A DNA stretch of 64,000 nucleotides, from positions 310,001 through 374,000 of the forward strand of contig NZ_CP080530.1 in NCBI RefSeq assembly GCF_024746835.1. The letters run 5' to 3'. Below, in pieces: positions 3,206 to 33,549 of the stretch (position 1 is its first letter; every line of letters starts with the position of its first letter). The translations under genes and the position numbers were made by a program. This DNA comes from Mesorhizobium sp. AR02 (GTDB lineage: Bacteria > Pseudomonadota > Alphaproteobacteria > Rhizobiales > Rhizobiaceae). Below the pieces are notes generated by a model. It was not told where the DNA came from, made no database searches, and saw only the letters and a list, made by a program, of their open reading frames with translations.

Positions 3206-3579
3206 CTGGACACAGACGACGGAACGACCGCTACGTCTGCTTGTACCTGATCAAGAGATTGATCGGGGATAAGCAGTGGGCAGCCCGACAGGTGGCGCAT
3301 TGTCCGAAATTTGCGGCATATTTCGGACATGGGTCGAAATTCAGGCCGGCCTCGTTTGGGCCTCCCTTAGGGCCCATCGTTGTCATCGCAGATCGGCTAT
3401 TGTGAATGGAGATCCTGTCCGTGCTGAACGAGGACGAGTTCGAGGGGGAAGAGTGCAATCAAAGGAGATCGGCAGTTTCTGCTGTTGAACGTCCCCTCAT
3501 TCAGAGGAAATGTGTTAGCGCGAGTTCTCAAAAGAACTCATCCCAGCTATGCTTAAACTGGGACGGCGGGGCAAAAGGG
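3206..3579 (+). other. Non-coding gap before the TerB-type gene
   Basis: 374 bases separate scpB from the preferred start of the next gene. The frame of that gene is open from 3406, but the first 58 residues look unlike protein sequence and precede a signal peptide, so I treat them as untranslated. The gap probably holds the promoter of the three-gene TerB operon; no clear operator could be picked out by eye. Confidence 0.4.
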
Positions 3580-6500
3580 ATGAGGTTGCCATTTTCTTGG
3601 ACTGTGATGGTCGCCTTGGCGACAGCATTGAGCGTCACAGACCCCGCAACTTCACAGGAATCTCAACATTCCGCTCGGCAGATTCAACAAGCGCTTGCCG
3701 ACCATGGGTACGATCTCGGGACCGCGGATGGAATTTGGGGACGTCGGTCCATCAGTGCGCTCAAGGCTTTCCAGAAAGCGAACAATCTTCCTCAGACCGG
3801 TACTTTGGACGAAGCGACGTCAGCCGCACTTTTTCCGCAACCCCAGGTGACGCGTGGCCCGTTGACGCCCATAGCCACGCACTCGCCCCCGTCGCTCTTA
3901 AAGAAGCCTGGTGTTCCAACGAAGACAACTCCACAGACAGGTCACGGTGAAGCCCGGCAAGCTGATGGCGATGTCCACCAGGCGCCGCCTTTGGCGGCGC
4001 ACACTGAGGGGGCGTCAGCCAAATCCGATCGTTTGGAGCCCGAGCCCAATAAGGTCGGCGAGGCGCCAACCACCCCCACACCGCGTTTGATCTATTTGGG
4101 CCTGCTAGCGGTCGCAACCGCGTTCTTCTTCTTGCGGAGACGGCGAAGAAAACCGGGCGCGGACCCGGTTCCAGCACGGTCCGGAAGTAAGAGCAGCGAA
4201 CCTGATCACGGTCTCGACCGGTCGATCAGAAGTAGCAGGCACCGCCTGCGTATTCCGAACGATCGCGTGGTGCCAGCCAGCATTGCTGATAGAAGGCAGC
4301 CAGTCGAACAAACGCCGATCCTGTCGCCGAACATTGCGGCTTCAATCGCAGCACACAACGCCGCTGTCCACGATTTCATCCGTCAGAGAGGAGCAATCAG
4401 ACGGCCAAAATCGGGGGCCAATCCTTCAGCCAGGCTGCCGGCACCTCCTGCAAAACCGAGTTGGGAAAGCTTAGAGGCTACCAAGGTCACCCCGGTAACG
4501 ACAACAAGCGACGGATCGCTCGCATCGCATATTGCTCAGATAGCGGAATCCATTCGAAGCCGCGATCCTGTTCTCATTCTACCTACGGCCGCAACGGATC
4601 AGACGCAGCCGTCGGGTTCCGAAAGCAAGGGCAGCCAACTTGATAGCAGTCTCGACCAATCGGCCAGAAGCAACAGGCACCTCTTGGTTCGGAACGATGT
4701 GATCGTTCCAGCCAATATTGCAGTTAGAAAACAACCGGTCGAACAGAAACAAACCTTACCATCAGATATTGCGACTTCTGTTGCGGCACATAATAAAGCT
4801 GTCCACGACTTCATCAGACAACGCGGAGCCTTTAGACCGCCCGAACCAGCGCCTAATCCTTCAGCCGCTCCCGCAGCAGCGGGTTGGCAAAGCATTGAGG
4901 ACACCAAGGTCGCCCCCGCAGCGCCAACAATCGAAGGATCGCTCGCATCGCATAATGCTCAGGTTTCGGATTTCATTCCGCAGCGCGGCCCTATTCTTGT
5001 TCCTAACACGGCCGTGTCGGACCAGCCGCGCTGGTTCGACCGGCTACCCCCAGTGCGAGCGAGCCCCGCCGCGAGCCAGGCGCAATGGATTCCGGCTAAT
5101 TCCGAAACGACGGTCGGAAGCCATAACATTCGCGGGGGCATGATTTATGTAGGTGAGCATCTGCCGAGACAGGGAAGTTCAGTCGACGCGGAGAACTGTC
5201 TGATCGATCCGAGGTTGACCGTGGCCGCTCGCGGCGATCCGCTGGGTCAAACGATGGGCTACTGGCCGTCTTACTCCCGCATTTCGCCCGGGGCGCGAAA
5301 ATCCTATCTGGACTGGCTTGCTGGATCGCGCTCCGATCCCGACGCCTATATCGGATACGTGTTCCTCAATTTCTACGGTCTCGAACGACGCCTCATGTTG
5401 GAGGAAAGCCCAGCCGACGCCGATGGTGTCGTTGCCGAGGTTCGTAGGCTGTTGCAGGTGTACGGAGGGAATGGTTCGTTCAAGCGCTATGCCGGTGAGC
5501 TGCTTTCGGCTTACCAGCTCAAATCGGCTCAGTTGCCGGAAAAGCTTCATCTGGAGGTCGAGGAAAATAGCTACGACATCCCGATAATGCTGAAGGTTGC
5601 CCTCGGGATGCGGGTGCGCAGCGGAGACGCGATAGAGCCAGATCTTTTGCTGGCTTACGTCATCGCCGATCCTGAGACGCGGGTGCGAACGCCGGCGCGA
5701 CGGGCACAGACTGTATTGCGAGAACTGTTCGCAGAAGCGGTGGAGAAGAAATATCCCAATGGCGTGCGCGTTGCGGCAGCCGGAGTGCGAAAACTGAGGG
5801 TCAACTACCGTGCGTGCAGCGGGACGTTCGATCTTGAACTTCGCCCCTTTGGCGGCGACCTGCCGGACATCACCAATCGCAGCGAACCGATAGGCGCCGC
5901 ACGCCGCATCTTTGATGACTGCACCGATCGGCTGGACGACTACAGCCGCATGCTCGGCCGTTCGGTAGGACTGAGGCCTACCCTTGCCGCCGTGGCTCAG
6001 CTGCCTTTGGGTTTGCGCGTGAAGAATGCGGAAGAGCTTCCTGGTCAGCCGTTGAGCCGGCTCCGGGAACTGGTGAGCAATGGTGCCCTGGTATCCATTC
6101 AGCAACTCGCCCAACTGGCCGGGATGGAGCCTGGCAAAATTGCCACGCGGGCCAAGCAGAAGGAACTGTCGGGAATTCTGGCCGCCCTCGGCTATGGCAA
6201 CACCGCCGACCCTTGCTTTTCTCTGAAGTCCGCAAAGCCAGACGCACTGGCAATGGTCTTTGCCCTGGAGCGCGAAGCTGAAGCCGATCCCGAACTGGGC
6301 CAGCACTACCGCCCCATGCAACTGTCAATCATGCTCGGCATGGTGATTGCGTTCGCCGACGGTCTCCTCCACCCCCTGGAGGAACGCAGGCTTTTCGAGA
6401 AGATAGACAAGGCGCCCGGTCTGTCTAGGGACGAACGTGTCCGCCTCAAAGCCGAGCTCAAGGTCTGCGCGGCCGATGCCGGCCGCGTTGTGGACTGGAC

Positions 6501-7209
6501 CAAACGCATAGGGGACGTGCCAGCGGACCGCCGCGAAGATCTCGCCGATGAATTGGTGGCTGTAGCAGCCGCAGACGGAACCCTTCACGCGCGAGAAGTG
6601 TCGCAGCTCGAGAAGCTGTTCCGGCAGATGGGTCTGGACGAAAACTCGCTGTATTCGCGACTGCATGGCAGTGTCGCGCCGCAGAACAGGCCGCGCGACG
6701 GAAATGACGATCTTCCCCTGGTTATCCCCGCCGGGATTCAACCGCCCGGCATTCCGGTGTCGCCGGCGTCCGCTGGCGCGCCTGCGACGCGCGTCGACAT
6801 CTCGCGTCTCGAAGCGATCCGACGCGAAACCCGCAGCACCTTCAGCGTCCTTGCCGATATCTTCGTGGACGAAGCAGAGCCGCCGATCGAGCTTCAGCCC
6901 GCGATCGAAGAAATCGAGACGTCCAATGGGGATGCGCGCTTCGATGGACTGGAGCGACGCTATGCGTGGCTTCTGTCGCAACTGATCGAGCAGGAAACCT
7001 GGACGGCTTCGGATTTTGAGCGTTTGGTGCGCAATGCCGACCTGATGCCGGGCGCGGCGAAGCAAGCACTAAACGATTGGTCGCTCGACCGCTTTGACGA
7101 ACTCGTCCTGGATGGCGAGGACCCTGTCATCGTCAACCCCAGCCTGTTTTCCGAAGCTACTCCCCAACCTCCGTCGCTTACCGTATCCGTCGAAGGAATG
7201 TCAGCATGA
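3580..7209 (+). CDS. Membrane-anchored TerB protein with periplasmic peptidoglycan-binding domain
   Basis: About 1209 residues from the ATG at 3580, preceded by a GGGG/AAAAGGG ribosome site and followed at once by a signal peptide (MRLPFSWTVMVALATALS). Residues about 28-85 form a PG_binding_1 domain (YDLGTADGIWGRRSISALKAF). A single membrane helix at about 170-187 is followed by RRRRRK, so the N-terminus should be periplasmic and the rest cytoplasmic. Two copies of a 146-residue repeat come next. They are followed by a TerB_N domain (about 500-670), a central TerB domain with acidic metal-binding loops (ADGLLHPLEERRL, AADGTLHAREVSQ), and a TerB_C domain at about 1073-1190. The stop overlaps the start of the BrxD-like ATPase gene by 4 bases. 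TerB_N/TerB_C proteins are known from predicted stress and conflict operons; the envelope-sensing arrangement here is read from topology. Confidence 0.85.
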   Translation: MRLPFSWTVMVALATALSVTDPATSQESQHSARQIQQALADHGYDLGTADGIWGRRSISALKAFQKANNLPQTGTLDEATSAALFPQPQVTRGPLTPIATHSPPSLLKKPGVPTKTTPQTGHGEARQADGDVHQAPPLAAHTEGASAKSDRLEPEPNKVGEAPTTPTPRLIYLGLLAVATAFFFLRRRRRKPGADPVPARSGSKSSEPDHGLDRSIRSSRHRLRIPNDRVVPASIADRRQPVEQTPILSPNIAASIAAHNAAVHDFIRQRGAIRRPKSGANPSARLPAPPAKPSWESLEATKVTPVTTTSDGSLASHIAQIAESIRSRDPVLILPTAATDQTQPSGSESKGSQLDSSLDQSARSNRHLLVRNDVIVPANIAVRKQPVEQKQTLPSDIATSVAAHNKAVHDFIRQRGAFRPPEPAPNPSAAPAAAGWQSIEDTKVAPAAPTIEGSLASHNAQVSDFIPQRGPILVPNTAVSDQPRWFDRLPPVRASPAASQAQWIPANSETTVGSHNIRGGMIYVGEHLPRQGSSVDAENCLIDPRLTVAARGDPLGQTMGYWPSYSRISPGARKSYLDWLAGSRSDPDAYIGYVFLNFYGLERRLMLEESPADADGVVAEVRRLLQVYGGNGSFKRYAGELLSAYQLKSAQLPEKLHLEVEENSYDIPIMLKVALGMRVRSGDAIEPDLLLAYVIADPETRVRTPARRAQTVLRELFAEAVEKKYPNGVRVAAAGVRKLRVNYRACSGTFDLELRPFGGDLPDITNRSEPIGAARRIFDDCTDRLDDYSRMLGRSVGLRPTLAAVAQLPLGLRVKNAEELPGQPLSRLRELVSNGALVSIQQLAQLAGMEPGKIATRAKQKELSGILAALGYGNTADPCFSLKSAKPDALAMVFALEREAEADPELGQHYRPMQLSIMLGMVIAFADGLLHPLEERRLFEKIDKAPGLSRDERVRLKAELKVCAADAGRVVDWTKRIGDVPADRREDLADELVAVAAADGTLHAREVSQLEKLFRQMGLDENSLYSRLHGSVAPQNRPRDGNDDLPLVIPAGIQPPGIPVSPASAGAPATRVDISRLEAIRRETRSTFSVLADIFVDEAEPPIELQPAIEEIETSNGDARFDGLERRYAWLLSQLIEQETWTASDFERLVRNADLMPGAAKQALNDWSLDRFDELVLDGEDPVIVNPSLFSEATPQPPSLTVSVEGMSA
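4211..4990 (+). repeat. Two-copy 146-residue internal repeat in the TerB protein
   Basis: Unit 1 begins at GTCTCGACC (4211) and unit 2 at the same string at 4649, exactly 438 bases (146 codons) apart. Shared peptide stretches include AAHN.AVHDFIRQRGA, RQPVEQ and EGSLASHNAQ-like segments; unit 2 ends around 4990 with a decayed third IPQRGPI motif. The repeats lie just after the membrane helix and so form a cytoplasmic linker. The copies are clearly diverged at the DNA level, so this is an old duplication. Confidence 0.7.
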
Positions 7210-8528
7210 CGACAAAACCCCCGCCGATCAAACCGAGAGATCGAGACACCATTATTAGCGCCTTGCGCGCCGGTGTCGTGCCGCGCATCGGTCTCCAGCA
7301 TATTCAGGTGGGGCGCCAGCGCGAGATCGAAGCGCTGATCCAGGACATCGAGCGGATCAGCAACGGCGGGTCGAGTATCCGTCTCGTCATCGGCGCCTAT
7401 GGTGCCGGCAAGACCTTTTTCCTGTTTCTCATCAGGCAAATTGCACTTCAGCGCAAGCTTGCCGTCTGCCAGGCCGACCTTTCTCCGGATCGCCGCATCC
7501 ACGCCACCGGCGGGCAGGCGCGTACGCTCTATGCCGAGCTCGCCACCAGTCTTGCGACCCGTACCTCTCCAGACGGAGGGGCGCTTAGAAATATCCTGGA
7601 AAGCTACATACAAAAGGCGTCGGAACGCGCGTCCTCAAGCGGGACGACTATTGAAAACGCCATCAAGGAAGGCCTTGTCGATCTTCGCGAGATGGTCGGT
7701 GGCTATGATTTCGCAACTGTCATCGTTGCCTATGCGCGGGGTTACGAGGAAGGAAACAGCAATTTGCAGGACGCCGCGCTGCGTTGGTTGCGCGGCGAAT
7801 ATACGACCAAGACAGAGGCGCGAGGCGATCTGGGCGTGCGTACCATCATCGACGACGCGTCCTTCTACGATGGCCTGAGATTGCTCGCTCGCTTCACAAG
7901 ACTGGCTGGCTTCGGCGGCCTGTTGGTCTGCCTCGACGAACTCGTCAATCTCTACAAGCTGCAGAGTGCCCAGGCCCGCAAACAGAACTACGAGCAGATC
8001 CTGCGCGTCTTCAACGATGTCCTGCAGGGCACGACGCAGGGCATCGGCTTCATTCTGGGCGGCACACCAGAATTTCTGCTCGACACGCGGCGCGGCCTTT
8101 ACTCCTACGAGGCCTTGCAATCCCGCCTTGCAGGGAACAGTTTTGCCGGCAATGGCCTGGCCGACTATTCCGGACCGGTGGTCAATCTGCCGAACTTGAC
8201 GCCGGAGGAACTCTACCATCTCCTGGAGCGGCTACGCGACGTCTTCGCCGCCGGCGATCAGGAGAAATGGCTCGTGCCAGACGCCGCACTCCACGCCTTC
8301 ATGGACCATTGCGCCAACCGGATCGGCGAGGCCTATTTTCGGACCCCGCGCAACACGGTGAAAGCCTTCGTCGATCTGCTCGCGATCCTCCAGCAAAACC
8401 CCGGCACAGATTGGAAAGACATGCTCGGCGCAGTGGACGTCGCGGAAGATCGAGGCGGTGCAGGCGACCTGCCCATCGACGACGTCGAAGGGGGAGCGGA
8501 CGACGAGCTTGCAACCCTCCGCATTTGA
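7206..8528 (+). CDS. BrxC/BrxD-type P-loop ATPase (DUF2791)
   Basis: A 440-residue protein with a clear Walker A motif (VIGAYGAGKTFFLFLIRQIA, about residues 60-79) and Walker B (LLVCLDELVNLYK, about 239-251). Later segments FILGGTPEFLLDTRRGLYSYEAL and NLTPEELYHLLERLRDVF fit the ATP-binding proteins of BREX systems (BrxD class, DUF2791). The gene starts inside the stop of the TerB gene (ATGA) and overlaps the following helicase gene, so the three are translationally coupled. In BREX type 2 loci, BrxD pairs with a BrxHI helicase; here PglX, PglZ and PglW are absent, so this is not a BREX locus. Confidence 0.8.
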   Translation: MTTKPPPIKPRDRDTIISALRAGVVPRIGLQHIQVGRQREIEALIQDIERISNGGSSIRLVIGAYGAGKTFFLFLIRQIALQRKLAVCQADLSPDRRIHATGGQARTLYAELATSLATRTSPDGGALRNILESYIQKASERASSSGTTIENAIKEGLVDLREMVGGYDFATVIVAYARGYEEGNSNLQDAALRWLRGEYTTKTEARGDLGVRTIIDDASFYDGLRLLARFTRLAGFGGLLVCLDELVNLYKLQSAQARKQNYEQILRVFNDVLQGTTQGIGFILGGTPEFLLDTRRGLYSYEALQSRLAGNSFAGNGLADYSGPVVNLPNLTPEELYHLLERLRDVFAAGDQEKWLVPDAALHAFMDHCANRIGEAYFRTPRNTVKAFVDLLAILQQNPGTDWKDMLGAVDVAEDRGGAGDLPIDDVEGGADDELATLRI

Positions 8529-10767
8529 CACGCTTTCCGAGCCGGTCAGGCGCTGGATATGGCAGCGGAAATGGCCGTCGCTACGGGATGTCCAGGAAAA
8601 AGCTATCCCGGTCATCCTCGCGGGCGGCGATGTCGTAATCTCCGCACGCACTGCCGCCGGCAAGACCGAAGCCGCCTTCCTGCCGTTGTTGACCCGGTAT
8701 GCCGAGCACGCAGGCAGCGCCGATGGCTTCGCCATCCTCTATGTGAGCCCGTTGAAGGCGTTGATCAACGATCAGCACCGGCGGCTGGAAAGCCTGTGCG
8801 AAGGCAGCGGCGTGCTCCTGCACAAGTGGCATGGCGACGTGTCGGCGGACGCCAAAACGCGAGCACGAAAACGACCGTCCGGTGTCGTGCTGATCACTCC
8901 GGAATCACTTGAGGCGTTGCTCGTCCGTAGGGGCGGGGAGGTTGCGCAGATGTTTTCGCGCCTCGATGCGGTGGTCATCGATGAGTTGCATGCCTTCATC
9001 GGTACAGAGCGTGGCATGCAGCTGCAGTCGATCCTCAACAGAATCGAGGTGGCGACCGCGCGAGACAGCATCGATCGAATTGGGCTTTCAGCAACACTTG
9101 GCGACATGAGCCTCGCTGCCGAGGCACTGCGGCCCGGCAAGGGCGCCAGTGTCACGATTGTGGAAGGCAGGGACGAGGGAAACGGGGTCCGTTTGCAGAT
9201 CCGGGGTTATCTACTGGACGGCACCGCTCCTGGCGATCTCACGGTTACCACAGACGATAGCGATCCGGTGGGAAAGCCGACCGAACCATTCGAACAATCG
9301 ACTGTCCCCGCAGCGCTGGCGTCCGACTTGTTTCGTCTGCTGCGCGGCCAGAGCAATCTGCTGTTTGCCGGATCTCGCGCCAATGTCGAGGTCTATGCTG
9401 ACATGCTGCGTTCGATGTGCGACGAAGCGAGCTTTCCAAATGAGTTCTTCCCGCATCATGGCAATCTCGCTAGGGCGATGCGCGAGGAGGTCGAAGCGCG
9501 GCTTCGGGACGATCCGCGGCCGACCACGGCGGTCGCGACCACCACCCTGGAACTCGGAATCGACATTGGCGAGGTTGAGACAATCGCGCAGATCGGGCCG
9601 GGTTTTTCGGTCGCGTCACTTCGCCAGCGCCTCGGCCGATCCGGCCGCAGGGCCGGAAAGCCCGCAACGCTGCGTATGTTCGTCATCGAGGCTCCCATTG
9701 GCAAGGGACGACACCCAATCGACCGGCTTCGTCTGGATCTGGTTCAGTCGATCGCGATGGTCGAGTGCCTGCGAGCGGGATGGTGTGAGCCGCCAATGCC
9801 AGCTGGGCTGCATCTCTCAACGCTGCTCCATCAAGTGATGGCGCTGATCGTGCAGACCGGCGGCGTAAGTCCGACGGTCGCCTGGAAGCTGTTGTGCGAG
9901 CGCGGCCCCTTCCGAGCTGTTGACAGGACGCTGTTCGCCGAATTGCTTCGGTGCATGGCCACACCTGAAAACCAGTTGATAGAGCAGTCCCCGGAAGGCT
10001 TGCTCATGGTCGCCGAGACCGGGGAAAAGATCACGGAATCGCACGAATTCTACGCCGTCTTCGCCACTGAACGGGAGTATCGGATCATTCACGATGCACG
10101 CACGCTCGGCACCTATCCGCTGAGCTCTCCGGTGGCACGTGGCGAAACCATCATTTTTGCCGGGCGCCGTTGGCGAGTCATCGAAATCGACGATCGCGCC
10201 CGTATCATCATGGTCAAGTCGACACGGGCTGGAAAGCCACCGCACTTTAGTGGCAAGGGGGCGGCCATCCACGATCACGTGGTGGCAACGATGCGCGCGG
10301 TTCTCGCATCCGATGAGGCCTACCCCTATCTCGATCCTGCCGCCAACCGCCTGCTGGATGAGGCGCGCGGTTCTTTCCTGGACCTGCAGCTGGATCGCCG
10401 TTCAATCGTAGCGCACGGGGAAGGGGTCCTGATTTTCCCTTGGGTCGGAACCAGGAAACTGCAGACCCTAACCCTTGCGCTGCTGTCCCGCGAGTTCAAA
10501 GCATCGCATTTCGGTCATGCCATTGAGCTTCAGGAATGCCAGGCCGAGAAAGCCATAGAGACTCTGCAGGACATAGCTGGTTCGCCGGCGCCAGACGGAG
10601 AAGAACTTGCTGCTCGACTGGCGCAACCGGCATTGGCAAAGTTCGACACGTTCCTGAGCGATCACTTGATGACATTGGTCACAATGGTGGAGAGAATCAG
10701 CGCCAAGGACTTGCCCCCGATCGCCACCAACGCACTGGGAAATCATACGAAGTATGAAGTTGCATAA
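8509..10767 (+). CDS. BrxHI/Lhr-like superfamily 2 DNA helicase
   Basis: About 752 residues from a TTG at 8509, chosen because AAGGGGGAG lies 12 bases upstream; the frame is also open from a GTG at 8458. SF2 motifs are complete: SARTAAGKTEAAF (I), SPLKALINDQHRR (Ia), ITPESLEALL, VVIDELHAFIGTERG (II, DELH), GLSATLGD (III), TTTLELGIDIGEV (V) and QRLGRSGRR (VI). The DELH box and long C-terminal half (to DLPPIATNALGNHTKYEVA) match Lhr-like helicases such as BrxHI. It overlaps the ATPase gene by 20 bases and ends the operon. The likely role is ATP-driven DNA translocation or unwinding, guided by the ATPase and TerB partners. Confidence 0.85.
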   Translation: MQPSAFDTLSEPVRRWIWQRKWPSLRDVQEKAIPVILAGGDVVISARTAAGKTEAAFLPLLTRYAEHAGSADGFAILYVSPLKALINDQHRRLESLCEGSGVLLHKWHGDVSADAKTRARKRPSGVVLITPESLEALLVRRGGEVAQMFSRLDAVVIDELHAFIGTERGMQLQSILNRIEVATARDSIDRIGLSATLGDMSLAAEALRPGKGASVTIVEGRDEGNGVRLQIRGYLLDGTAPGDLTVTTDDSDPVGKPTEPFEQSTVPAALASDLFRLLRGQSNLLFAGSRANVEVYADMLRSMCDEASFPNEFFPHHGNLARAMREEVEARLRDDPRPTTAVATTTLELGIDIGEVETIAQIGPGFSVASLRQRLGRSGRRAGKPATLRMFVIEAPIGKGRHPIDRLRLDLVQSIAMVECLRAGWCEPPMPAGLHLSTLLHQVMALIVQTGGVSPTVAWKLLCERGPFRAVDRTLFAELLRCMATPENQLIEQSPEGLLMVAETGEKITESHEFYAVFATEREYRIIHDARTLGTYPLSSPVARGETIIFAGRRWRVIEIDDRARIIMVKSTRAGKPPHFSGKGAAIHDHVVATMRAVLASDEAYPYLDPAANRLLDEARGSFLDLQLDRRSIVAHGEGVLIFPWVGTRKLQTLTLALLSREFKASHFGHAIELQECQAEKAIETLQDIAGSPAPDGEELAARLAQPALAKFDTFLSDHLMTLVTMVERISAKDLPPIATNALGNHTKYEVA

Positions 10768-11119: not shown

Positions 11120-12526
11120 TCACGCTGGTACAGAAGCTAGGCGATCGTGCCAAGTTACAAGATGTGCCCTATGCATCTGTAGATGCGCCTGATCGGCTGT
11201 GCTTGCCAGGGCAAGCATGGACTCGGCTAACTCTACTGCTGCTGGGATCGTCAGCCAAGGCTCCATCCCGTCCAACCCGAGAACACGCCGCCGATGCTTC
11301 TCCGCGTGATGGGCGCGTTGGTCGTTGGTGAGCACGCCGGGACTTTCCAGATAGACCAGTTCTTCGCCTAAAACGCGCAGGCGCCCATCCCGGATGCTCG
11401 AAAGAATGGCCTGCCGCTGGCCCCACGGCGCCGCGTGAAACTGTTCGAGCACTGCGAGGTCGTTGTCGCCGGTGAATGTATCAAAAATCTGCTGCTCGAC
11501 ATGGGCCGAAGGCGGGTAGACCGGCAGCGACGCTTCGCGCGCGGCGACCAGCCGGCCCGTGAGCACCGGATCATCCCGCAATCGTCGTACGCGGCGTTCA
11601 AGTTCTGCGTCGTCCAGAAAACGCGCTTCGGTTCCAGATGGGGCATCCTCGACCCCGAAGATCACGGGGCACCCGTTGACTTTTAGCTTCTTGATCGGAC
11701 GGGGCATGTTGGCCAGTCGGTCAGTCAGTTCATCATCGTCGAGGGCGGCCAAGTAGTCAGGATCGAACTGAAGATCGTAGGCGTAGTGAACATTTTTGTC
11801 GGTAGTCGAAACGCCAATCCGCGTGACAAGCCAACTATATGCCCTGCCCTTGTAGAACTCAGCCATGCCGAAGATGGGCTCATCGAGGACATATTGTAGG
11901 ACGGTTGATTTCTGAGCGAAACGCATGAAGTTGTTCCAGACGTCAGGCGCCTCGTTCATCAGGATGCGTGCGAGGTGAAGGGTCGCGTCGATGTCGGCCC
12001 TGGCATCATGGGCATTTGGGTGATTGAAGCCATTGGCGCGTGCAAGCTCACCTAGGTTGAACAATGGCGTGTCGTAATCGCTGTAGGTGACGCGCAAGGC
12101 CCCAGGCGAAATCAGGTGAGCGGCGCGTGCAACCTTGAGGATGTCGGAGCGGGAATTTCCGTCCATGACGGTGAGATATGGTCGATGCAGCGTTTTATAG
12201 AATGCCGCGCGCAGGAAATTCTCGTCGAAGCCTATATTGTTGAAGCCCATGAACATCGATGGGCCCCATGTGCGCATGGTCGCCTGGATGGCGCGGACCA
12301 TCTCGTAGTGCGAAGGCAGCGCCGGGTTGACCAGTTGCGCCGGCGTCAGCCCGTTTACCTTCATGGCCTCCGGGCTGGGTACGACGTGGGGCAGCATGCG
12401 ACTCTGGAATTGGGCTTCCTGAAGCGGCTGCAGATCGGCATCGGTCCTGACGGCAGCAAACTGTAGAATCTGATCGTAAGGCCAGTTCGTGCCGGTCGTC
12501 TCGGTGTCGTAGAACACGAATGCCAT
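11120..12526 (-). CDS. sbcB: Exodeoxyribonuclease I (SbcB-like 3'-5' ssDNA exonuclease)
   Basis: 468 residues from the ATG at 12526, which has GAGGG just upstream; an upstream ATG at 12553 would overlap the preceding gene. The DEDD exonuclease signature is intact: FYDTETTGT (motif I, Asp/Glu), MGFNNIGFDENFLRAAFY (motif II) and NAHDARADIDAT (motif III, HDxxxD). The C-terminal region fits the SH3-like and helical extension of exonuclease I. The enzyme should degrade single-stranded DNA from 3' ends. It is the last gene of an XRE-ImmA-exonuclease unit with gaps of 7 bases or overlaps. Here it is probably an accessory or defence copy rather than the chromosomal repair gene. Confidence 0.85.
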   Translation of the reverse strand: MAFVFYDTETTGTNWPYDQILQFAAVRTDADLQPLQEAQFQSRMLPHVVPSPEAMKVNGLTPAQLVNPALPSHYEMVRAIQATMRTWGPSMFMGFNNIGFDENFLRAAFYKTLHRPYLTVMDGNSRSDILKVARAAHLISPGALRVTYSDYDTPLFNLGELARANGFNHPNAHDARADIDATLHLARILMNEAPDVWNNFMRFAQKSTVLQYVLDEPIFGMAEFYKGRAYSWLVTRIGVSTTDKNVHYAYDLQFDPDYLAALDDDELTDRLANMPRPIKKLKVNGCPVIFGVEDAPSGTEARFLDDAELERRVRRLRDDPVLTGRLVAAREASLPVYPPSAHVEQQIFDTFTGDNDLAVLEQFHAAPWGQRQAILSSIRDGRLRVLGEELVYLESPGVLTNDQRAHHAEKHRRRVLGLDGMEPWLTIPAAVELAESMLALASTADQAHLQMHRAHLVTWHDRLASVPA

Positions 12527-12533
12527 GCCGCCC

Positions 12534-13088
12534 TCACTTCGTTGCGGATACACTCTTCAGTCGGTACTCCATCATCGATTTACTGACGCGGAATTTTCGT
12601 GCCAGCTCATCCAGCGGGCTTTCGTCATCGATATCGGCAGACGCCAGCCGACCATGAAGAATCTTCTGGAGAAGTGGCAGAGGAACAAGCAGCGCCGCCG
12701 CGAAGCGGTTCGCTTGAACTTCAATGGGCTCTGTACCGAGCGATGATTGGTTGTCGCGGTTGAGCAGCACCGGCACGGAAAAATCCTTGTCCACGTGCAC
12801 CTCGTTGGAAAGCAGGTCGCGATGCAGCTCCAAGTGGCCGCATTCGTGAGCGATGGTGAAGCGCTGACGGTTGATATGATGCAGGGCATTGACGCCGATG
12901 ATCGGCGTGCCGTCCTTAATGAAGATCATGCCCGACAGCTCATTATCGAGCGCAGAGTAGCGCACGACGGCGCCGAGGCCCTTGGCAATTCTGTCGACGG
13001 GTATGGGCGCAGTTTCTCCTAACTTGAAACGCTGCAGTACGGATGCGGCCATCTTCTCTGGTTGGTCAGCGCTTAGCCTGCTTGGCAA
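12534..13088 (-). CDS. ImmA/IrrE family metallopeptidase
   Basis: A 184-residue protein with the HExxH zinc motif in RFTIAHECGHLELHRD, followed by EVQANRFAAALLVP, which supplies the third metal ligand region, and a C-terminal winged-helix-like segment (LDELARKFRVSKSMMEYRL). The start is TTG at 13088, supported by AAGGGGGAG 6-8 bases upstream; it overlaps the XRE gene by 23 bases. ImmA/IrrE peptidases cleave a partner XRE-family repressor to switch on mobile-element or defence genes. The partner here is the upstream XRE gene, and the probable regulated unit is the divergent ubiquitin-like operon (inference). Confidence 0.9.
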   Translation of the reverse strand: MPSRLSADQPEKMAASVLQRFKLGETAPIPVDRIAKGLGAVVRYSALDNELSGMIFIKDGTPIIGVNALHHINRQRFTIAHECGHLELHRDLLSNEVHVDKDFSVPVLLNRDNQSSLGTEPIEVQANRFAAALLVPLPLLQKILHGRLASADIDDESPLDELARKFRVSKSMMEYRLKSVSATK

Positions 13089-13425
13089 CGGTCTCTCCCC
13101 CTTTTGCAGTTGTTGGTTCGTCCATTAGCAATTGCGCGAGTTGAGCGCGCTGATGCGCCGGAAGCTTCGTCGAGAATTTGACCTCGTCGGCGGCGGCGAC
13201 ATGACGGGCAGGTCTCGGCAGCAGGTCTGCCGGTTCGATGCCAAGCGCGGATGCGAAAGCGAAAAGCTGATGGACCAGCACCTTCTGCTTGCCGCCCTCG
13301 ATGTTGGCAAGCGACGTTCTGGAAAGTCCGACCTGCGGCGCAAGCTGTTCCTGCGTGAGCTTCAGTTGTTTGCGCCGCTGGCGAATCAATCCGCCGATTT
13401 CTGGATAGACCCAGTCATGGTTCAT
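13066..13425 (-). CDS. XRE-family helix-turn-helix repressor
   Basis: 119 residues from the ATG at 13425 (MNHDWVYPEIG), with GAGAGG about 10 bases upstream; the frame is open further up to 13584, but that extension runs through the divergent promoter region. The HTH_3 domain is clear: GGLIRQRRKQLKLTQEQLA, then VGLSRTSLANIEGGKQKV, with ASALGIEPADLLPRPARH closing it. A 40-residue tail follows and may be the segment contacted or cut by the ImmA peptidase. It is paired by overlap with the ImmA gene and transcribed away from bilA across a 152-base region with inverted repeats. Confidence 0.9.
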   Translation of the reverse strand: MNHDWVYPEIGGLIRQRRKQLKLTQEQLAPQVGLSRTSLANIEGGKQKVLVHQLFAFASALGIEPADLLPRPARHVAAADEVKFSTKLPAHQRAQLAQLLMDEPTTAKGGETVAKQAKR

Positions 13426-13464
13426 GTCTTGTTCTACCTCTCGGGCGGCGAGATTGTCAATGTC

Positions 13465-13503
13465 GCAAACAAGGTTTGTAAAACGGACATTAAAAATGTT
13501 TGC
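13465..13503. promoter_or_regulatory. Candidate XRE operator between the XRE gene and the ubiquitin-like operon
   Basis: The divergent intergenic region carries related half-sites: GCAAAC at 13465-13470, GTTTG at 13474-13478 (together a 13-base palindrome CAAACAAGGTTTG) and TGTTTGC at 13497-13503, the exact reverse complement of GCAAACA at 13465-13471. Such nested half-sites are typical of XRE repressor binding. They lie upstream of both start codons, so one repressor could control both units. Confidence 0.5.
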
Positions 13504-13577
13504 TATTGACGAATTATGGTATCGGCCGTAGTTCTGGCGATGTCGACGTGATCCGCGGCTGACTTCAGGAGACCAAA

Positions 13578-14105
13578 ATGGCATCTGAGATTTTCGTACA
13601 TGCGAACGGGCGCAATCCCGTCGTGGCCTCGGTCGAGGACACAGACAAGCTGACCGATGTGCTGGACCGCCTGGGGCTTGGCGATAAGGACTTTGCCGAC
13701 GGCCTCGTTTTCGTCGGCGAGAGCGAGGACGTCTTGGAGGACTTCGAGTCCGAGGACGGCGAGGACAAGGCCGAGCCCGTCGACCGCAAGAAGTCCGTGG
13801 CGGATCTCGAACTCGGGAAACGCCGTCACGTCCACGTCACTCGCTGCAAGCGCGTGAAGATCGAGGTGCACTATGGCGCCAAGACCAAACACCGCAAGGT
13901 CGCGCCGTCGACGACGGTGGCGACGTTGACGAAATGGGTGCGTAAGGCGTTCAAGCTCGATCCCGCCTCAGCTGCCGAGTACGTCCTCCAGATTACCGGG
14001 ACGACGACTCAGCCGCGCGGCGACACCCATATCGGCGAACTGACCAGCGCGCCGGTTTGCGCTGTGGCGTTCGACCTCATCAAAGAAGTAACGCCTCAGG
14101 GGTGA
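13578..14105 (+). CDS. bilA: Tandem ubiquitin-like modifier (BilA-like)
   Basis: A 175-residue acidic protein made of two beta-grasp domains: residues 1-90 ([26 protein letters not shown]) and about 91-175 ([31 protein letters not shown]). The two-domain layout resembles ISG15 and the bacterial multi-ubiquitin family. The chain ends in PQG followed directly by TGA, so the C-terminal glycine needed for adenylation by an E1 is already exposed. AGGAG lies 8 bases before the start. It heads a four-gene operon with E2-, JAMM- and E1-like genes in the order described for BIL systems, which conjugate the modifier to phage structural protein in experimentally studied cases. Confidence 0.8.
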
Positions 14106-14112
14106 GATTGAG

Positions 14113-14610
14113 ATGACGCCGGATCAGAAGCTATTTCTCATGGACCTTGAGGACGCCGGGTTTCGCACCGGCGTCCTAGCAGGTCGTTGGGGCGTTGGGG
14201 AAGCTGACGTGCTGCCCGAGGGCATGTCGTGGCCGCATATGTGCTTCTGGCTGCAGGCGGCCGAACGGCCGGGTGCGCCGGATCGCTATTACATCATGAT
14301 CGATGTCGACGGATATCGCTCGGTTTCTCCCACCGGGTCCTTCTGGGACCCGGTCGGAAAGACCATGCTGGGTGCCTCGAAATACCCAAAGGGAAAACCG
14401 GGATCGCGCTTTGCGAAGGTCTTTCGGACGGACTGGCAGCCCGGTTTGTCCAAGGCCTTTTACCATCCATATGACCGCTTCACCTTGAGTTCGCACACCG
14501 ATTGGACCAGCACGATGGCGCATCTTGCCTGGACAGAGCGAAAAACGATCACCGACTACCTCGATGAGTTTCAACTGCTGCTGACGGGGGACGACTATGC
14601 CGGCCAGTGA
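14113..14610 (+). CDS. bilB: E2/UBC-fold protein (BilB-like), canonical cysteine not evident
   Basis: 165 residues with an E2-like order of elements: a first strand around [14 protein letters not shown], a second around [17 protein letters not shown], a long loop, then [11 protein letters not shown], reminiscent of the HPN region of E2 enzymes, and a C-terminal helix ending YAGQ. The only cysteine in the protein is Cys44, on the predicted first strand, far from where the catalytic cysteine normally follows the HP motif. Assignment rests partly on its position between the modifier and the JAMM gene. It starts 7 bases after bilA with AGGGGTGAG upstream, and overlaps bilC by 14 bases. It may be inactive, use Cys44, or belong to a divergent prokaryotic E2 class. 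Confidence 0.65.
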
Positions 14611-15097
14611 ACAGATCGAAAAACACATCCGGGTCAGCGTGTGGATCTGGGCGTGGCTCGTCCTCGGGCTACGCTTCCGCGGCAAAGGGCGCCGTGAGAG
14701 CGGCGCGTTTCTGCTGGGCCGGTGGACTGGCCAGTTGGGAACCGTGGGGCGCGTCGTTTTCTACGACCAACTGGACCCGCACGCTTATCAGAATGGGATC
14801 ATCATGTTCCACGGCGACGGTCTTGCGGCGCTCTGGAAGATTTGCCGGGAGAGCGGCCTTGAAGTGCTCGCCGACTCCCACACCCACGGCAATGCGAATA
14901 CAGGCCAGAGTGTGACGGATCAGCGCAATCCCATGATTCCGGAAGTCGGCCATACGGCCCTGATCTTCCCATACTTCGCGCGCATGGCACCGTGGTCAAA
15001 GCGTGGCGTCGGGATACATGAATATTTGGGCAGCTACAGGTGGCGGCGGCATGACCGAGGCGGTCAATCAGATCGCTTGCGCCTGATCTTTTGGTAG
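14597..15097 (+). CDS. bilC: JAMM/MPN+ deconjugating peptidase (BilC-like)
   Basis: A 166-residue protein with a complete JAMM zinc-protease signature: the upstream glutamate in [10 protein letters not shown] (Glu34) and HxHx7SxxD in [16 protein letters not shown] (His95, His97, Ser105, Asp108). JAMM enzymes hydrolyse isopeptide bonds at the C-terminal glycine of ubiquitin-like proteins, so this one should remove or process the BilA-like modifier. It overlaps the E2-like gene and is followed within 8 bases by the E1-like gene. All catalytic residues are present. Confidence 0.88.
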
Positions 15098-15105
15098 GGG
15101 CGCAC

Positions 15106-16479
15106 ATGGCAAGCATTTCGCGAATCTCTAAGCTGCTCGTAGATCGTAACGGCGATGATCCCGGGAAGGTGCTCGCACGGCGGCGAGGATTCACGGTGAC
15201 AATGAAGCTGGGCGACGATGTCGCCGCGTCGAGGTCGCTTCAACTGGCTGCCTTGACCGCGGTACGTCTGGCAACCCGGTGCTTTCCGGGCGCTGTCCGC
15301 GTGGACGCGCCGGACTCCGTCCTGAGCGCGCCGGCCCTGGTTGGAGCGCCAGGGAGAGCCACGCTTGGGTTCGCCCTAGCTACGGAGGTTGGAAAGCGCA
15401 ACATGACGCCGACCGACGGTGGTCGGCTTGTTCTTTTCGGCAATGCTGCCCACGACGGAGCGGCCACACGCGTGACGTTCGACGGTTGGGCGGCTGTAAC
15501 GGGTCCGCAGCACGTTCTGAGTCGCTATGCGGAACGCGAACATTGCTCGCTTGCGCCGATTCTCGCTGCCGCCCTAGCCATCTCGGAGACCTTCCTAGGT
15601 TTCGCGGGCATCGACCTTTTGGCTGGAAGACGCGTCGTGGGTCTTTCGCTGTGGCGCCCCGACCTCGACCACGCAAATCCCGAAGCCGTCGGGCCAGTCG
15701 TGACCGCGCTGCCAAAGCAGGCGTGGTTGCTAGGTTTGGGGCACCTCGGCAACGCTTATCTGTGGGCGCTCGCGACTCTTCCCTTCGCCGATCCTACCGA
15801 TGTACTTCTGTATCTGCTGGACTTCGACAAGGTAGAAAAGGCCAATACCGAAACCGGTGTGCTGTTCCGGAGCCGCGACATCGGCGAGCTTAAGACTCGG
15901 GTGTGCTCGAACTGGCTGGAGCGGTTCGGCATCAAGAGCCGCCTTGTCGAACGGCGCTTCAACGAGCACACGCGCAGGCTCGATGGCGAACCAGCACTTG
16001 CGCTCAGTGGCTTCGACAACAATGAGGCGCGCCAGCTTATCGTCGGCGCCAGTTTTGGGCGTGTCGTTGATAGCGGGCTCGGCGGCACCGCGACTAACTT
16101 CGATTCGATTAGCTTCCGGACATGGCCGAATGCGCGCGCGGCGGGCGAAATCTGGCCGGTGCTTTCGGCCGCCGAGAAAGCAGATGCTGAAGAAGCGATC
16201 TTGAAAGCGGTTGAAGAAAACCCTGCCTATCGACGCCTGAAGCGCGACCGTTGTGGCATTATCGGATATGCTGGGAAGTCAGTCGCTGTGCCTTTCGTGG
16301 GTATGTTGGCCGCGACACTGGTTATGGCCGACACCCTGCGAGTACTCAATGAGGGCGAATGCTTGCAAAACCTGAAGGTCCGGCTGGGCGAGCTTTCGGG
16401 CGGACTTGCGGTGACCTGGTCGAAATATACGAAGGATGATTTGGCGGCGGTGGCCTATGCGCCCGCGCAGAAATATTGA
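15106..16479 (+). CDS. bilD: E1-like ThiF-fold adenylyltransferase (BilD-like)
   Basis: 457 residues from the ATG at 15106 (TAGGGG upstream); the frame is open a few codons earlier. The first 200 residues are a poorly conserved accessory domain. A ThiF/E1 Rossmann domain then starts with LLGLGHLGN (residues 208-216, nucleotide loop), LLDFDKVEKAN (ATP-binding aspartate), RSRDIGELKT and SGFDNNEARQL. Cys383 in KRDRCGIIGYAG, just before AVPFVGMLAATL, sits where bacterial E1 enzymes carry the thioester cysteine. The enzyme should adenylate the BilA C-terminal glycine and take it as a thioester. It is the last gene of the operon and converges on the TIM-barrel gene. Confidence 0.85.
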   Translation: MASISRISKLLVDRNGDDPGKVLARRRGFTVTMKLGDDVAASRSLQLAALTAVRLATRCFPGAVRVDAPDSVLSAPALVGAPGRATLGFALATEVGKRNMTPTDGGRLVLFGNAAHDGAATRVTFDGWAAVTGPQHVLSRYAEREHCSLAPILAAALAISETFLGFAGIDLLAGRRVVGLSLWRPDLDHANPEAVGPVVTALPKQAWLLGLGHLGNAYLWALATLPFADPTDVLLYLLDFDKVEKANTETGVLFRSRDIGELKTRVCSNWLERFGIKSRLVERRFNEHTRRLDGEPALALSGFDNNEARQLIVGASFGRVVDSGLGGTATNFDSISFRTWPNARAAGEIWPVLSAAEKADAEEAILKAVEENPAYRRLKRDRCGIIGYAGKSVAVPFVGMLAATLVMADTLRVLNEGECLQNLKVRLGELSGGLAVTWSKYTKDDLAAVAYAPAQKY

Positions 16480-16608: not shown

Positions 16609-17358
16609 TCACTCGGCGGGCTGAATTGGGCTGATCCGGCCATCGGCCGTGTGGGCGGCGGCATACCGATGGTTGGTCAGTAGCTTCTCCGTCTCGGCTA
16701 TCTCGCGCACGATCGCATCCCGCGTCACCATGGACTCAATGATAACTGGAGTACGGGACAAGACCATTGCGAAGGGTTCGTACGCGCGCTTGGCGGCGAA
16801 GGACATCGCAAAATGTGTACCTTTGCTGTTGATTTCACTGACATGGAATTGAGCAAGCCGGCCGCCGAACCGTCGCAGAATACGCACCGCTTCGGTCATG
16901 GAGGAGTCGACTTGGCGGGCGTGAGCAATGTCCAGGCACAATTTAGCATCTGGGAGCATGTCGAAGAATGGCTGTAGTTCTTCTGCTGTGCGGCCGACTG
17001 GTTTGCGAGAATCCATGTTTTCCAGACAGAGACGCGACCCTAGCGCCCGCCATATAGGGATGTCGCCGATCGTATCGGGATGGACAACTACATTCAGTCC
17101 CATATCCGCGATAGTCTTCAGTTGCTGAACCATCGGACGTTCGTCGTCGAAATTGGTGGGAGCGTGGAAACTCACGTAGCGATATCGTTTATTCAACCCG
17201 GGTAACAACCCCGGCAACGCGGCCAACAACGGCTGCAGTTCTGCGGTTCGCAACGCGGAGAGTTCTACGGCGGAGGCGCGCGTGGGTGCCAGCAGATCAA
17301 GTGCCGTCGCGAAATCGTCACGGGCGATTGCTCCCGTGGAGAAGCCGATCGTCGGCAT
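16609..17358 (-). CDS. Xylose-isomerase-like / AP-endonuclease-2-like TIM-barrel protein
   Basis: A 249-residue TIM barrel. The start MPTIGFSTGAIARDDF, the FHAPTNFDD and VVHPD strands, LENMDSRK, CLDIAHARQVD, QFHVSEIN and the C-terminal VIIESM follow the pattern of metal ligands (Glu, Asp, His, Glu) in sugar-phosphate isomerases/epimerases and endonuclease IV. Metal binding therefore looks preserved. It overlaps the upstream nucleotidyltransferase gene by one base (17358), so the two are translationally coupled. The reaction cannot be read from the sequence: isomerase, epimerase and phosphodiesterase/nuclease activities are all possible in this fold. Confidence 0.75.
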   Translation of the reverse strand: MPTIGFSTGAIARDDFATALDLLAPTRASAVELSALRTAELQPLLAALPGLLPGLNKRYRYVSFHAPTNFDDERPMVQQLKTIADMGLNVVVHPDTIGDIPIWRALGSRLCLENMDSRKPVGRTAEELQPFFDMLPDAKLCLDIAHARQVDSSMTEAVRILRRFGGRLAQFHVSEINSKGTHFAMSFAAKRAYEPFAMVLSRTPVIIESMVTRDAIVREIAETEKLLTNHRYAAAHTADGRISPIQPAE

Positions 17359-18449
17359 CAGAACACCCCATACTTTTTTACCAGCTTGGCAACGCCGGCG
17401 TCCGCTTCGAACAACAACTTGGTCAGTGCGTCATCGAACTTCGTCGCCACGCCCCTCGCTTCCAAGAATACCTCATCTTCGTACGCTTCGTCCGGAGACA
17501 AATTCTCAAGCCTCGTCCGACGGGCCTCATCGTCGAGAACAGCAAGAAAGGAATCGTAACTATCGAAGATGTCGGACGCCAATTCCGGCGCATATCGCTC
17601 TACCACGCCGGCCAGAGAGACCAATGGAGAGCGTTGGGTCCAAGCCAGTAGATGATCTACGAGATCTTGGATCTCGAAATCGTCGCTTTTTTGGGCGTGG
17701 TCCTCAAGTGCCCAAGATAGGCACATGAAGAAGCCGGAGACGAAGAGCAACTTCCTCGACATCCGTAGCTTTATATTTCGCAGCGCCCACTTTTGACCGC
17801 CTCGGGCCCGGTACTTGTTCGCGTAATCGACTGCCATAGTGCGCCAGAAACGCACCACGTCGTTCAAGAGGAAACGCGGAATCCTGTCAGCACGCTTGTT
17901 GCTACCAATGAAGCTAGCGTCCTCCTGGACGTAGCGATTAAGGATAGCCTGCACGATGCGGGCATGGGTCTCGACGCTTCCCGCAGCATGGACGGGGGCC
18001 GACTCCAACAGCAATAGTAAACGCCGGGTCATGTTCTTGTTAGTATCTTCGTCTCCGCCGACGGCGTGGACCAGGTCATGGCTGAAGATTAGACCGCCGA
18101 ACACCTCAGTTGGTCCCGGAACCTTGAAGCCAGCTTTTTCGAGTTCGGTCTTAAGCTTGTGTATGATCTGCAAATGCAAGGAGTCGGCGCGCCCGTCGAT
18201 CAGGACAGTCCAGTCGAGATCGCTACCTGCGGTATATTCACCGCGCGCTAGAGAGCCGAACACAACGAAGCTGCCTTCGTCGGTAGGTAGCAGGTCGTTT
18301 GCGATACGGGCCAAGACCTCCAAGCGCTCTCCGCTACGGCGTTCGGCGGCGGCGATATGACTCCACCGGGAGGCGTCGTTTCCCCTGAGTCGATCTAGCG
18401 CGGTGATAGGCATATGCGGGTTGCTCGTTTTGAATCGGCATTCGCTCAC
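17358..18449 (-). CDS. Pol-beta-fold nucleotidyltransferase
   Basis: A 363-residue protein with the nucleotidyltransferase signature VVFGSLARGEYTAGSDLDW at about residues 62-80: GS, then SDxD, which supplies two metal aspartates. A helical middle region and a mainly helical C-terminal half with no recognised domain follow. The family transfers NMP groups to proteins, RNA, small molecules or other nucleotides; the target here is unknown. It is the first gene of a two-gene unit with the TIM-barrel protein, and both lie between two defence operons. Candidate functions are a toxin or signal synthetase with the barrel protein as processing or antidote enzyme, but this is speculation. Confidence 0.75.
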   Translation of the reverse strand: MSECRFKTSNPHMPITALDRLRGNDASRWSHIAAAERRSGERLEVLARIANDLLPTDEGSFVVFGSLARGEYTAGSDLDWTVLIDGRADSLHLQIIHKLKTELEKAGFKVPGPTEVFGGLIFSHDLVHAVGGDEDTNKNMTRRLLLLLESAPVHAAGSVETHARIVQAILNRYVQEDASFIGSNKRADRIPRFLLNDVVRFWRTMAVDYANKYRARGGQKWALRNIKLRMSRKLLFVSGFFMCLSWALEDHAQKSDDFEIQDLVDHLLAWTQRSPLVSLAGVVERYAPELASDIFDSYDSFLAVLDDEARRTRLENLSPDEAYEDEVFLEARGVATKFDDALTKLLFEADAGVAKLVKKYGVF

Positions 18450-19645: not shown

Positions 19646-20776
19646 TTATGACTCTTTGAGAGATGGCGTGGGATAGGATTTTGCCATCTTCGCTCGGGCC
19701 TGCTGTGTGGAGAACATCCAGCGGATGCGGGCGCCACTTTCGGTGCGGCGGCGTTCCCAGGTCCGGATCTCTGTTTCAAGGAGGTCGCGGCTAGCGATGC
19801 GGCGATCAAGACATTGGCGGCGCATAACGCCGATTTCGATCTCGACGATGTTGAGCCAACTGGCGTGCCTGGGTGTGTAGTGGAACTCCAGGCGTCGCAA
19901 GATCCGACGCGCCTCGACTGCTGGAAAGGTCTGATAGACAGCGGAGGCCGTGTGGGTTGATAGGTTATCCATCACGACGCGGACCTTGTCGGCGCCGGGA
20001 TAGTCCACGTCGACCAGGTCGCGCATGCAGACGGCGAAGTCCTCGTTTGCGCGCCGGTCGGTGACCTTGACCCTGCGCCACGACCGGTTGGCGTCGACCA
20101 TGACAAAGAGGTTGGCCGTGCCGTTACGCTTGTACTCGGAGTCGTAGCGGTATCGCTTTCCGGGTTTCGGCACGATGGGCACGCGCACCTCGCCGATGAG
20201 CTGGATCGGACTTTCATCGAAGCAGACCACCGGTCGCTTGGGATCATGCGGCTCGGCATAGAGATCGAGGAGATCCTCCATGCGGGCGATGTACTCCCCA
20301 TCGATATTGGCGATGCACCACATCTTCTGTTGCCAGGGCTTCAGATCGTTGTCGTTCAACCGCCGGCGGACGGTGTCGCGTGAGACGCTCGGGTGTTCCA
20401 TCACTTCGACCAGGGCGTTGGCCAGAAGCTTCAAAGTCCACCGGGCGCATCCCTGCGGCGGATCAGAACAGGCCAGCGCCACCAGTTGCACCTCCTGCTT
20501 GCCGCTTAGTTTGCGAGCCGCCCCCGGACGCGGCCCTTCACTGAGGGCGGCCTCCAGGCTGATCTCCACAAAGCGCTTCTTGGTGCGGTAGATGGTCGAG
20601 TCGCTGGTCTGCACCGAGATGGCGATGGCCTCGTCGGCGACCCCGGCGTCGGCGGCCAGCAGGATCTGCATCCGCTTGAGCCGCCGCACCGGCAGTTTAC
20701 CCCCGCTCACCAAAGCACGCAGCTCGTCTCGTTCGGATTGGCTGAGTTCGACCCGATATCGTATGTTCATTCCCAA
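19646..20776 (-). CDS. IS630-family DDE transposase
   Basis: A 376-residue transposase. The N-terminal half contains helix-turn-helix domains (SGGKLPVRRLKRMQILLAAD, AVADEAIAISVQTS-like region, SVSRDTVRRRLND). The catalytic core has VVCFDESPIQL (first Asp), VRVVMDNLSTHTASAV (second Asp) and LNIVEIEIGVM (Glu), so the DDE triad is complete. Length and motifs are normal for the family and the frame is uninterrupted, so the element may still be mobile. An alternative start two codons inside (20770) is possible. Confidence 0.93.
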   Translation of the reverse strand: MGMNIRYRVELSQSERDELRALVSGGKLPVRRLKRMQILLAADAGVADEAIAISVQTSDSTIYRTKKRFVEISLEAALSEGPRPGAARKLSGKQEVQLVALACSDPPQGCARWTLKLLANALVEVMEHPSVSRDTVRRRLNDNDLKPWQQKMWCIANIDGEYIARMEDLLDLYAEPHDPKRPVVCFDESPIQLIGEVRVPIVPKPGKRYRYDSEYKRNGTANLFVMVDANRSWRRVKVTDRRANEDFAVCMRDLVDVDYPGADKVRVVMDNLSTHTASAVYQTFPAVEARRILRRLEFHYTPRHASWLNIVEIEIGVMRRQCLDRRIASRDLLETEIRTWERRRTESGARIRWMFSTQQARAKMAKSYPTPSLKES

Positions 20777-33539: not shown

Positions 33540-33549
33540 GGTAAGCAAA

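Follow-up and report, generated by a model that had tools for sequence, protein, structure and literature searches.

What do the three overlapping genes at positions 3580-10767 of a 64,000-nucleotide stretch of Mesorhizobium sp. AR02 DNA encode, and what does a peptidoglycan-binding domain do on the first of their products? We call the whole stretch the window and number positions from its first base. An earlier note on this DNA described a TerB protein that faces the envelope and is linked to an ATPase like BrxD and a helicase like BrxHI, and domain and profile matches bear out that description. The note also held that TerB domains and the BrxD-BrxHI pair were known separately, and it missed that PADLOC already names the trio as a system, one reported to block phages in Pseudomonas; a new three-gene combination had to be rejected. 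By its profile matches the trio is the known Shango anti-phage system (SngA, SngB, SngC), because all three Shango models match far above the BREX ones. Millman et al. 2022 is reportedly a further reference on Shango. What appears to be new is the anchoring of SngA, the trio itself being known. Our best reading is that Shango is usually tethered to the membrane and that the variant in the window additionally grips the cell wall.

The PADLOC model for SngA matches the first protein at 8.1e-77. The second protein matches the SngB model at 8.8e-176 (583.3 bits) and the BrxD model at 6.8e-52 (175.1 bits), while the corresponding values for the third are 5.8e-259 (859.7 bits) for SngC and 2.4e-121 (404.3 bits) for BrxHI/BrxHII. 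Against the NCBIfam model of BrxD, SngB scores 172.6 bits, below the cut-off of 350. SngA carries TerB_N, TerB and TerB_C domains together (Pfam, PADLOC), and the three genes adjoin in the order A-B-C. The same three families in the same order make up the Shango system of Johnson et al. 2023, whose clones of the TerB, ATPase and helicase genes from P. aeruginosa PA14 gave 10-100-fold lower plating for many, but not all, phages (PMC10250203; here and below, statements about cited papers refer to the accessible parts of their texts).

A degenerate BREX system was rejected. The 8.9-Mb genome, which holds one SngA and one SngB, has no match to PglZ (PF08665) anywhere, so the BREX phosphatase noted earlier as missing is indeed absent. 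The genome also has no second BrxC/D-family protein; SngB is its sole BrxC_BrxD match, and no BrxC lies beside a BrxD. BREX type 2 does contain a related and tightly linked ATPase and helicase, and a BREX paper from 2026 suggests for BrxD a role in loading BrxHI onto DNA or activating it there (PMC12839542), but the window genome differs in the missing PglZ and in an SngB that falls below the BrxD cut-off. Shango is not mentioned in the accessible text of that paper.

The trio is laid out as follows.

3580-7209, + strand: SngA, 1209 amino acids (aa), predicted envelope-tethered TerB protein (PADLOC; start set by signal peptide and comparison)
3580-3660, + strand: signal peptide, likely cleaved near ATS/QES (by eye; ATA/QES or similar in relatives)
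3676-3831, + strand: PG_binding_1 domain, expected to be periplasmic (Pfam 1e-13; 51.7 bits, cut-off 23)
3832-4086, + strand: predicted periplasmic linker, fast-changing (dN/dS 0.69-1.03)
4087-4134, + strand: predicted single membrane helix, LIYLGLLAVATAFFFL (hydropathy rule)
4135-4152, + strand: RRRRRK, inner-side charge cluster (sequence)
4153-5019, + strand: predicted cytoplasmic linker with duplicated stretches and the short repeated motif SLxxHNxxVxxFI (direct repeats)
5101-5697, + strand: TerB_N domain (Pfam 5.8e-43)
6328-6645, + strand: TerB domain with two ADG...E signatures (Pfam 9.9e-11)
6781-7155, + strand: TerB_C domain (Pfam 7.4e-22)
7206-8528, + strand: SngB, BrxC/D-family AAA+ ATPase (PADLOC; Pfam BrxC_BrxD 3.7e-152)
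8458-10767, + strand: SngC, superfamily 2 (SF2) helicase, Lhr/BrxHI-like, with an uncertain start at GTG 8458 (PADLOC; Pfam DEAD and Helicase_C)

All three open reading frames (ORFs) are present and overlap as first described, SngA and SngB sharing the bases ATGA at 7206-7209. Although the longest SngA frame runs from 3406 to 7209 (1267 aa), 3580 is preferred as the start because the signal peptide begins there, three relatives (P0002, P0018 and P0019; compared loci are numbered L and proteins P) start at the matching position, and the 58 residues upstream are poorly kept, with stop codons there in L032. For this last reason the longer form from ATG 3406 was rejected. The signal peptide, the peptidoglycan-binding (PG) domain and the single helix followed by RRRRRK had all been predicted from the start, and all were recovered; only the limits of the helix differ, having been given earlier as 4084-4140. 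Our hydropathy rule, which was set after a looser first pass, calls a 17-residue segment whose hydropathy averages 1.8 or more and whose middle 13 residues include no charged one. It fires once within the first 480 residues of the window's SngA and finds no segment in the SngA core, SngB or SngC. Net charge over the 12 residues after the helix is +5.

SngB carries the motifs GAYGAGKT and LVCLDE, and SngC carries ARTAAGKT, DELH and QRLGRSGR. Searches for solved structural relatives returned only TerB entries for SngA (2h5n, E 0.0019; 2jxu, E 0.036) and none for SngB. A promoter scan gave 4 sites against 2.1 expected, with none near the SngA start on the SngA strand. The direct repeats of the SngA linker pair 4445-4606 with 4868-5029 and 4180-4248 with 4618-4686. 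One to four copies of SLxxHNxxVxxFI(R/K) occur in the cytoplasmic linker of PG-type SngA, namely in the window (4153-5029), L047, L048 and L050-L052, and the motif is also present in P0001-P0017, P0020 and P0021; a pattern search was negative in L049, L054, L082, P0018 and P0019. Could this be a docking motif? At the extreme end of SngB (about 8499-8525), behind a variable stretch, seven of eight aligned sequences retain a short tail resembling DDELASFRL.

Gene order in the trio is conserved well beyond Mesorhizobium sp. AR02. Species genomes were scanned with eight SngB sequences, and the best 80 named loci among the matches listed form our locus set. An SngA homologue lies upstream of SngB in 79 of the 80 and an SngC homologue downstream in 77; the 76 loci that have both hold A, B and C in order, which answers the earlier suggestion to look for the trio as conserved neighbours in other genomes. 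The four loci without the full trio are contigs of 3.0-5.4 kb. This association exceeds chance. Within Mesorhizobium, SngB was found in 14 of 146 genomes, six in the PG clade described below and eight others (seven of them in the SngB tree, with L039 outside it). The SngA start was inspected in six of these eight, and in each the protein opens with one helix (L036 by eye). SngA is split or 5'-truncated in four Mesorhizobium copies (L027, L028, L034 and L038); L027 also has a split SngC, and L028 has a Tn3 element nearby.

Membrane segments are frequent in SngA. Starts could be evaluated in 73 loci, that is, the 80 minus one without SngA and six cut by a contig end. A membrane-helix-like segment precedes TerB_N in 52 of them, two or more segments being present in 40, whereas the same rule fired in 5/73 TerB cores, 2/72 SngC proteins and 98/1460 shuffled N-terminal stretches. 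The rule misses helices that we judge real in L052, L082 and L103, as well as in L076 and L087, where a hairpin lies upstream in another frame, and it includes one doubted segment (L080). SngA of Pseudomonas and of many beta- and gammaproteobacteria carries a tight two-helix hairpin (the PA14 protein itself was outside the comparison), and others have a single helix. The window's SngA differs from that of the described Shango system in its signal peptide, PG_binding_1 domain, single helix and length of 1209 aa; the PADLOC model has 528 positions, and the E. coli copies have 776 residues including the stop. Two inspected E. coli SngA proteins open with a helix and KKKK, and a third E. coli match is a truncated ATPase gene without SngA. 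Charge is more positive after the helix in 10 of 12 one-helix loci, and among 36 hairpin loci both flanks are more positive than the loop in 32; this count leaves out 4 of the 52 loci, in which the two segments are far apart. These flanking charges fit a TerB part that lies inside the cell. An amphipathic helix as a substitute for the membrane helix in Actinobacteria and others was rejected, as no more than 2 of the 7 starts tested outperformed shuffled sequences at the 5% level. Judged by predicted segments, SngA commonly contains a membrane segment in different phyla.

Other N-terminal modules vary between lineages. A Pfam survey of 17 of the 73 loci, picked for a long N-terminal part, found PG_binding_1 in L047-L052 and L082, DUF2510 in L083 and DUF805 in L106, and no extra N-terminal domain in L054, L061, L079, L105, L116, L119 and L120. 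In Aureimonas (L115), SngA, at 4609-7989 of that locus, has two HTH_3 stretches as well as a membrane segment ahead of TerB_N, possibly a DNA-binding link. P0037 combines PG_binding_1 and a helix with an LprI-like stretch just under the cut-off (21 vs 22 bits). Three protein sequence searches listed PG_binding_1 for 16/22, 10/17 and 7/10 matches (one match shared), fractions that are uninformative on prevalence because the searches retain a protein only if its length is similar.

In the SngB tree (92 rows) the window falls among rhizobia, in a clade of 12 rows that all carry the PG label (support 100/95), and Bosea L082 lies on a separate branch; the starred branches force two changes. Labels were assigned by hand to the PG rows and to rows from L027-L045, L076, L080, L087, L091, L103 and L115. 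L038 was labelled by clade only, as was the PG row L028, in which the 5' end of SngA is cut off near the Tn3 element; L027 and L034 are broken copies with the PG part on a separate fragment. Two independent gains of the PG domain, read from this tree, were withdrawn after a tree of the SngA core, built by a quick method from 86 rows (the window, 60 of the 73 loci and 25 of the 31 proteins P0018-P0048). All PG-bearing rows of that tree (the window group, the Bosea group and P0037) fall in the same half, interspersed with non-PG rows, and at least six label changes are forced, though some non-PG rows may merely have a shortened start. On these trees the PG domain may have been gained several times, or once long ago with later losses.

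The PG domain and helix are under purifying selection like that on the TerB core, unlike the linkers. Ratios of non-synonymous to synonymous substitution rates (dN/dS) were calculated by the Nei-Gojobori method for three pairs of Mesorhizobium copies with a fully open SngA (window, L031 and L032); the counts are small. The ratio is 0.12-0.20 in the PG domain (from only 4-7.5 replacement changes), 0.18-0.22 in the helix plus arginines and 0.16-0.17 in the TerB core, compared with 0.69-1.03 in the periplasmic linker and 0.48-0.53 in the cytoplasmic linker. L031 is without part of the cytoplasmic linker, which shifts the limits of the post-helix segments in the pair L031-L032. For the signal peptide the ratio is 0.22-0.35, and for SngB and SngC it is 0.03-0.05 and 0.10-0.11 (two pairs with the window). 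Over the first 300 SngA residues of nine relatives, all 16 invariant columns lie in the PG domain or no more than 2 residues away, but columns before the domain are unable to score as invariant because L049 begins inside it. Among the invariant positions of 61 aligned SngA cores are E113, R115, R219, R301, R466, H540 and N676 (numbered from nucleotide 5047). The ADG...E signatures of the TerB domain are nearly as constant (D438 in 60/61, E445 in 58/61, D510 in 56/61 and E517 in 59/61), which we take to be compatible with the metal site proposed for TerB.

From the family identity, gene order, domain architecture, frequency of SngA membrane segments and selection on the PG domain and helix, we propose a Shango operon whose SngA is tethered to the cell envelope, contacts the wall and recruits SngB and SngC at the membrane, and we give this proposal an even chance of being correct. 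SngA would be exported by its signal peptide, placing PG_binding_1 in the periplasm, and would cross the inner membrane once, with the TerB domains inside on a long flexible linker, where they would keep both the SngB ATPase and the SngC helicase near the membrane. Entry of phage DNA, with a local opening of wall or membrane, would change the state of SngA; SngB, an ORC/Cdc6-type AAA+ protein, would load SngC onto incoming or membrane-near DNA, and the DNA bound by SngC would be unwound or blocked. By analogy, the BrxD-BrxHI division of labour is the simplest reading of SngB and SngC. A TerB protein apparently built to span the membrane and reach the wall suggests that the system acts near the site of viral DNA entry. 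Wall sensing as the trigger is doubtful, and a wall domain that serves as a plain anchor is about as likely as one that senses wall opening.

The wall-linked reading may draw support by analogy from Zorya, a system in which defence can depend on a periplasmic domain that binds peptidoglycan: peptidoglycan binding by the periplasmic part of ZorB is required, and this envelope protein is linked in type I to a helicase protein (PMC11890865). Zorya, however, combines an ion-driven motor of the MotAB kind with a Pal-like wall domain, whereas the window trio has one helix, PG_binding_1 (a family match) and TerB domains, with no MotA- or OmpA-type match by Pfam. Hachiman is likewise a helicase-centred defence, and its authors group SngC with BrxHI, DruE and DpdJ in a potentially distinct SF2 clade (PMC12278908), but there the helicase is paired with a nuclease, and the accessible text does not mention a TerB protein.

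Several observations weigh against a Shango anchored to membrane and wall. The PG domain is small and the helix short, and most Shango loci surveyed have no recognised wall domain. By the hydropathy rule 21 of the 73 SngA proteins have no segment, and a Paraburkholderia group and several Actinobacteria seemingly have none, so Shango probably works without a membrane helix in some lineages. Several Mesorhizobium copies are broken, so the system seems to be frequently lost. No nuclease was recognised in the trio. A more far-reaching proposal, which we consider rather unlikely, is that Shango is a DNA-entry defence at the inner membrane with SngA as an exchangeable sensor, tuned by swapped N-terminal modules (helix hairpin, DUF805, DUF2510, cell-wall domain and possibly an LprI-like domain); SngA of the rhizobial and Bosea groups would then read a local opening that the phage's injection machinery makes in the peptidoglycan, and would license a loader of the BrxD type to place a helicase of the Lhr type on the genome as it enters.

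The alternative that survives best, possible though short of probable, is that the PG domain and helix only keep the complex at the edge of the cell, where it meets phage DNA that is entering or replicating, and that SngB and SngC recognise the DNA itself. Hachiman provides a precedent for a sensor helicase (PMC12278908). Between lineages the N-terminal part of SngA is freely swapped (a hairpin, a single helix, DUF805, DUF2510 or a PG domain), as would be expected of a tether, but a simple hairpin would anchor equally well, and yet the PG domain is kept under selection and is found on more than one branch. It is improbable that plasmids or conjugative DNA, or a response to envelope stress, rather than phages, are the main business of the system. 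TerB proteins are members of stress systems, and Shango copies lie on plasmids typed as conjugative in Mesorhizobium sp. L-2-11 and Bradyrhizobium elkanii. Set against this, Shango blocks phages in Pseudomonas (PMC10250203), and the window is rich in anti-phage genes. A chance fusion without a role, with SngA acting as in helix-free lineages, is very improbable: although some SngA proteins have no helix and the N-terminal part has been lost or split in certain copies from the same clade as the window, dN/dS is 0.12-0.22 in the PG domain and helix as opposed to 0.48-1.03 in the linkers, and the 16 invariant columns cluster at the PG domain.

Downstream of Shango the window continues with an SbcB-like exonuclease, a CapP-like peptidase, a helix-turn-helix (HTH) gene, BilABCD, PDC-M70 and SIR2-HerA. 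At 11120-13584 (- strand) the exonuclease gene (PADLOC RTasSbcB, 2.4e-95) follows a CapP-like M78 peptidase gene (5.1e-29) and the HTH gene; the arrangement resembles a regulatory pair of the CapH/CapP type accompanied by an exonuclease, and it stands back to back with the Bil genes. A complete BilABCD set, an ISG15-like conjugation defence, occupies 13578-16479 (+ strand; four PADLOC models, each 4e-42 or better). The candidate defence pair PDC-M70A/B (PADLOC) lies at 16609-18449 (- strand) and the SIR2-HerA pair at 21841-24902 (+ strand; 1.6e-179 and 9.4e-160), with an IS630-like transposase between them at 19646-20776. At 25451-28849 (- strand) is a gene for a 1132-aa protein with AAA_11/AAA_12 helicase, RNase_H_2 and weak PD-(D/E)XK matches. 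A GHMP kinase, a PLP enzyme and an ATP-grasp and lyase fusion follow in series at 32484-37301 (+ strand), making up a small biosynthetic operon within the defence island or next to it. In the flanks of six PG-type loci, 20 PADLOC families matched at 1e-10, each by one of 55 ORFs and many through related methylase models; with no control set, we make no claim of enrichment.

According to a review from 2026, how Shango works is unknown (PMC12926258). The word "transmembrane" is absent from the accessible text of PMC10250203, where "membrane" occurs only in an unrelated place, and a membrane-bound SngA is not mentioned in the accessible parts of that paper, the review, PMC10952713, PMC12278908 or PMC13286925. 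Most subscription journals and all bioRxiv preprints lay outside this search, and the absence of a mention is therefore no proof that a membrane-bound SngA is unpublished. If SngA is indeed mostly an inner-membrane protein that sometimes contacts the wall, then the site at which Shango acts and the cue that it senses would become directly testable, and Shango would be a second, unrelated case of the Zorya theme, in which envelope contact is coupled to a DNA-acting helicase.

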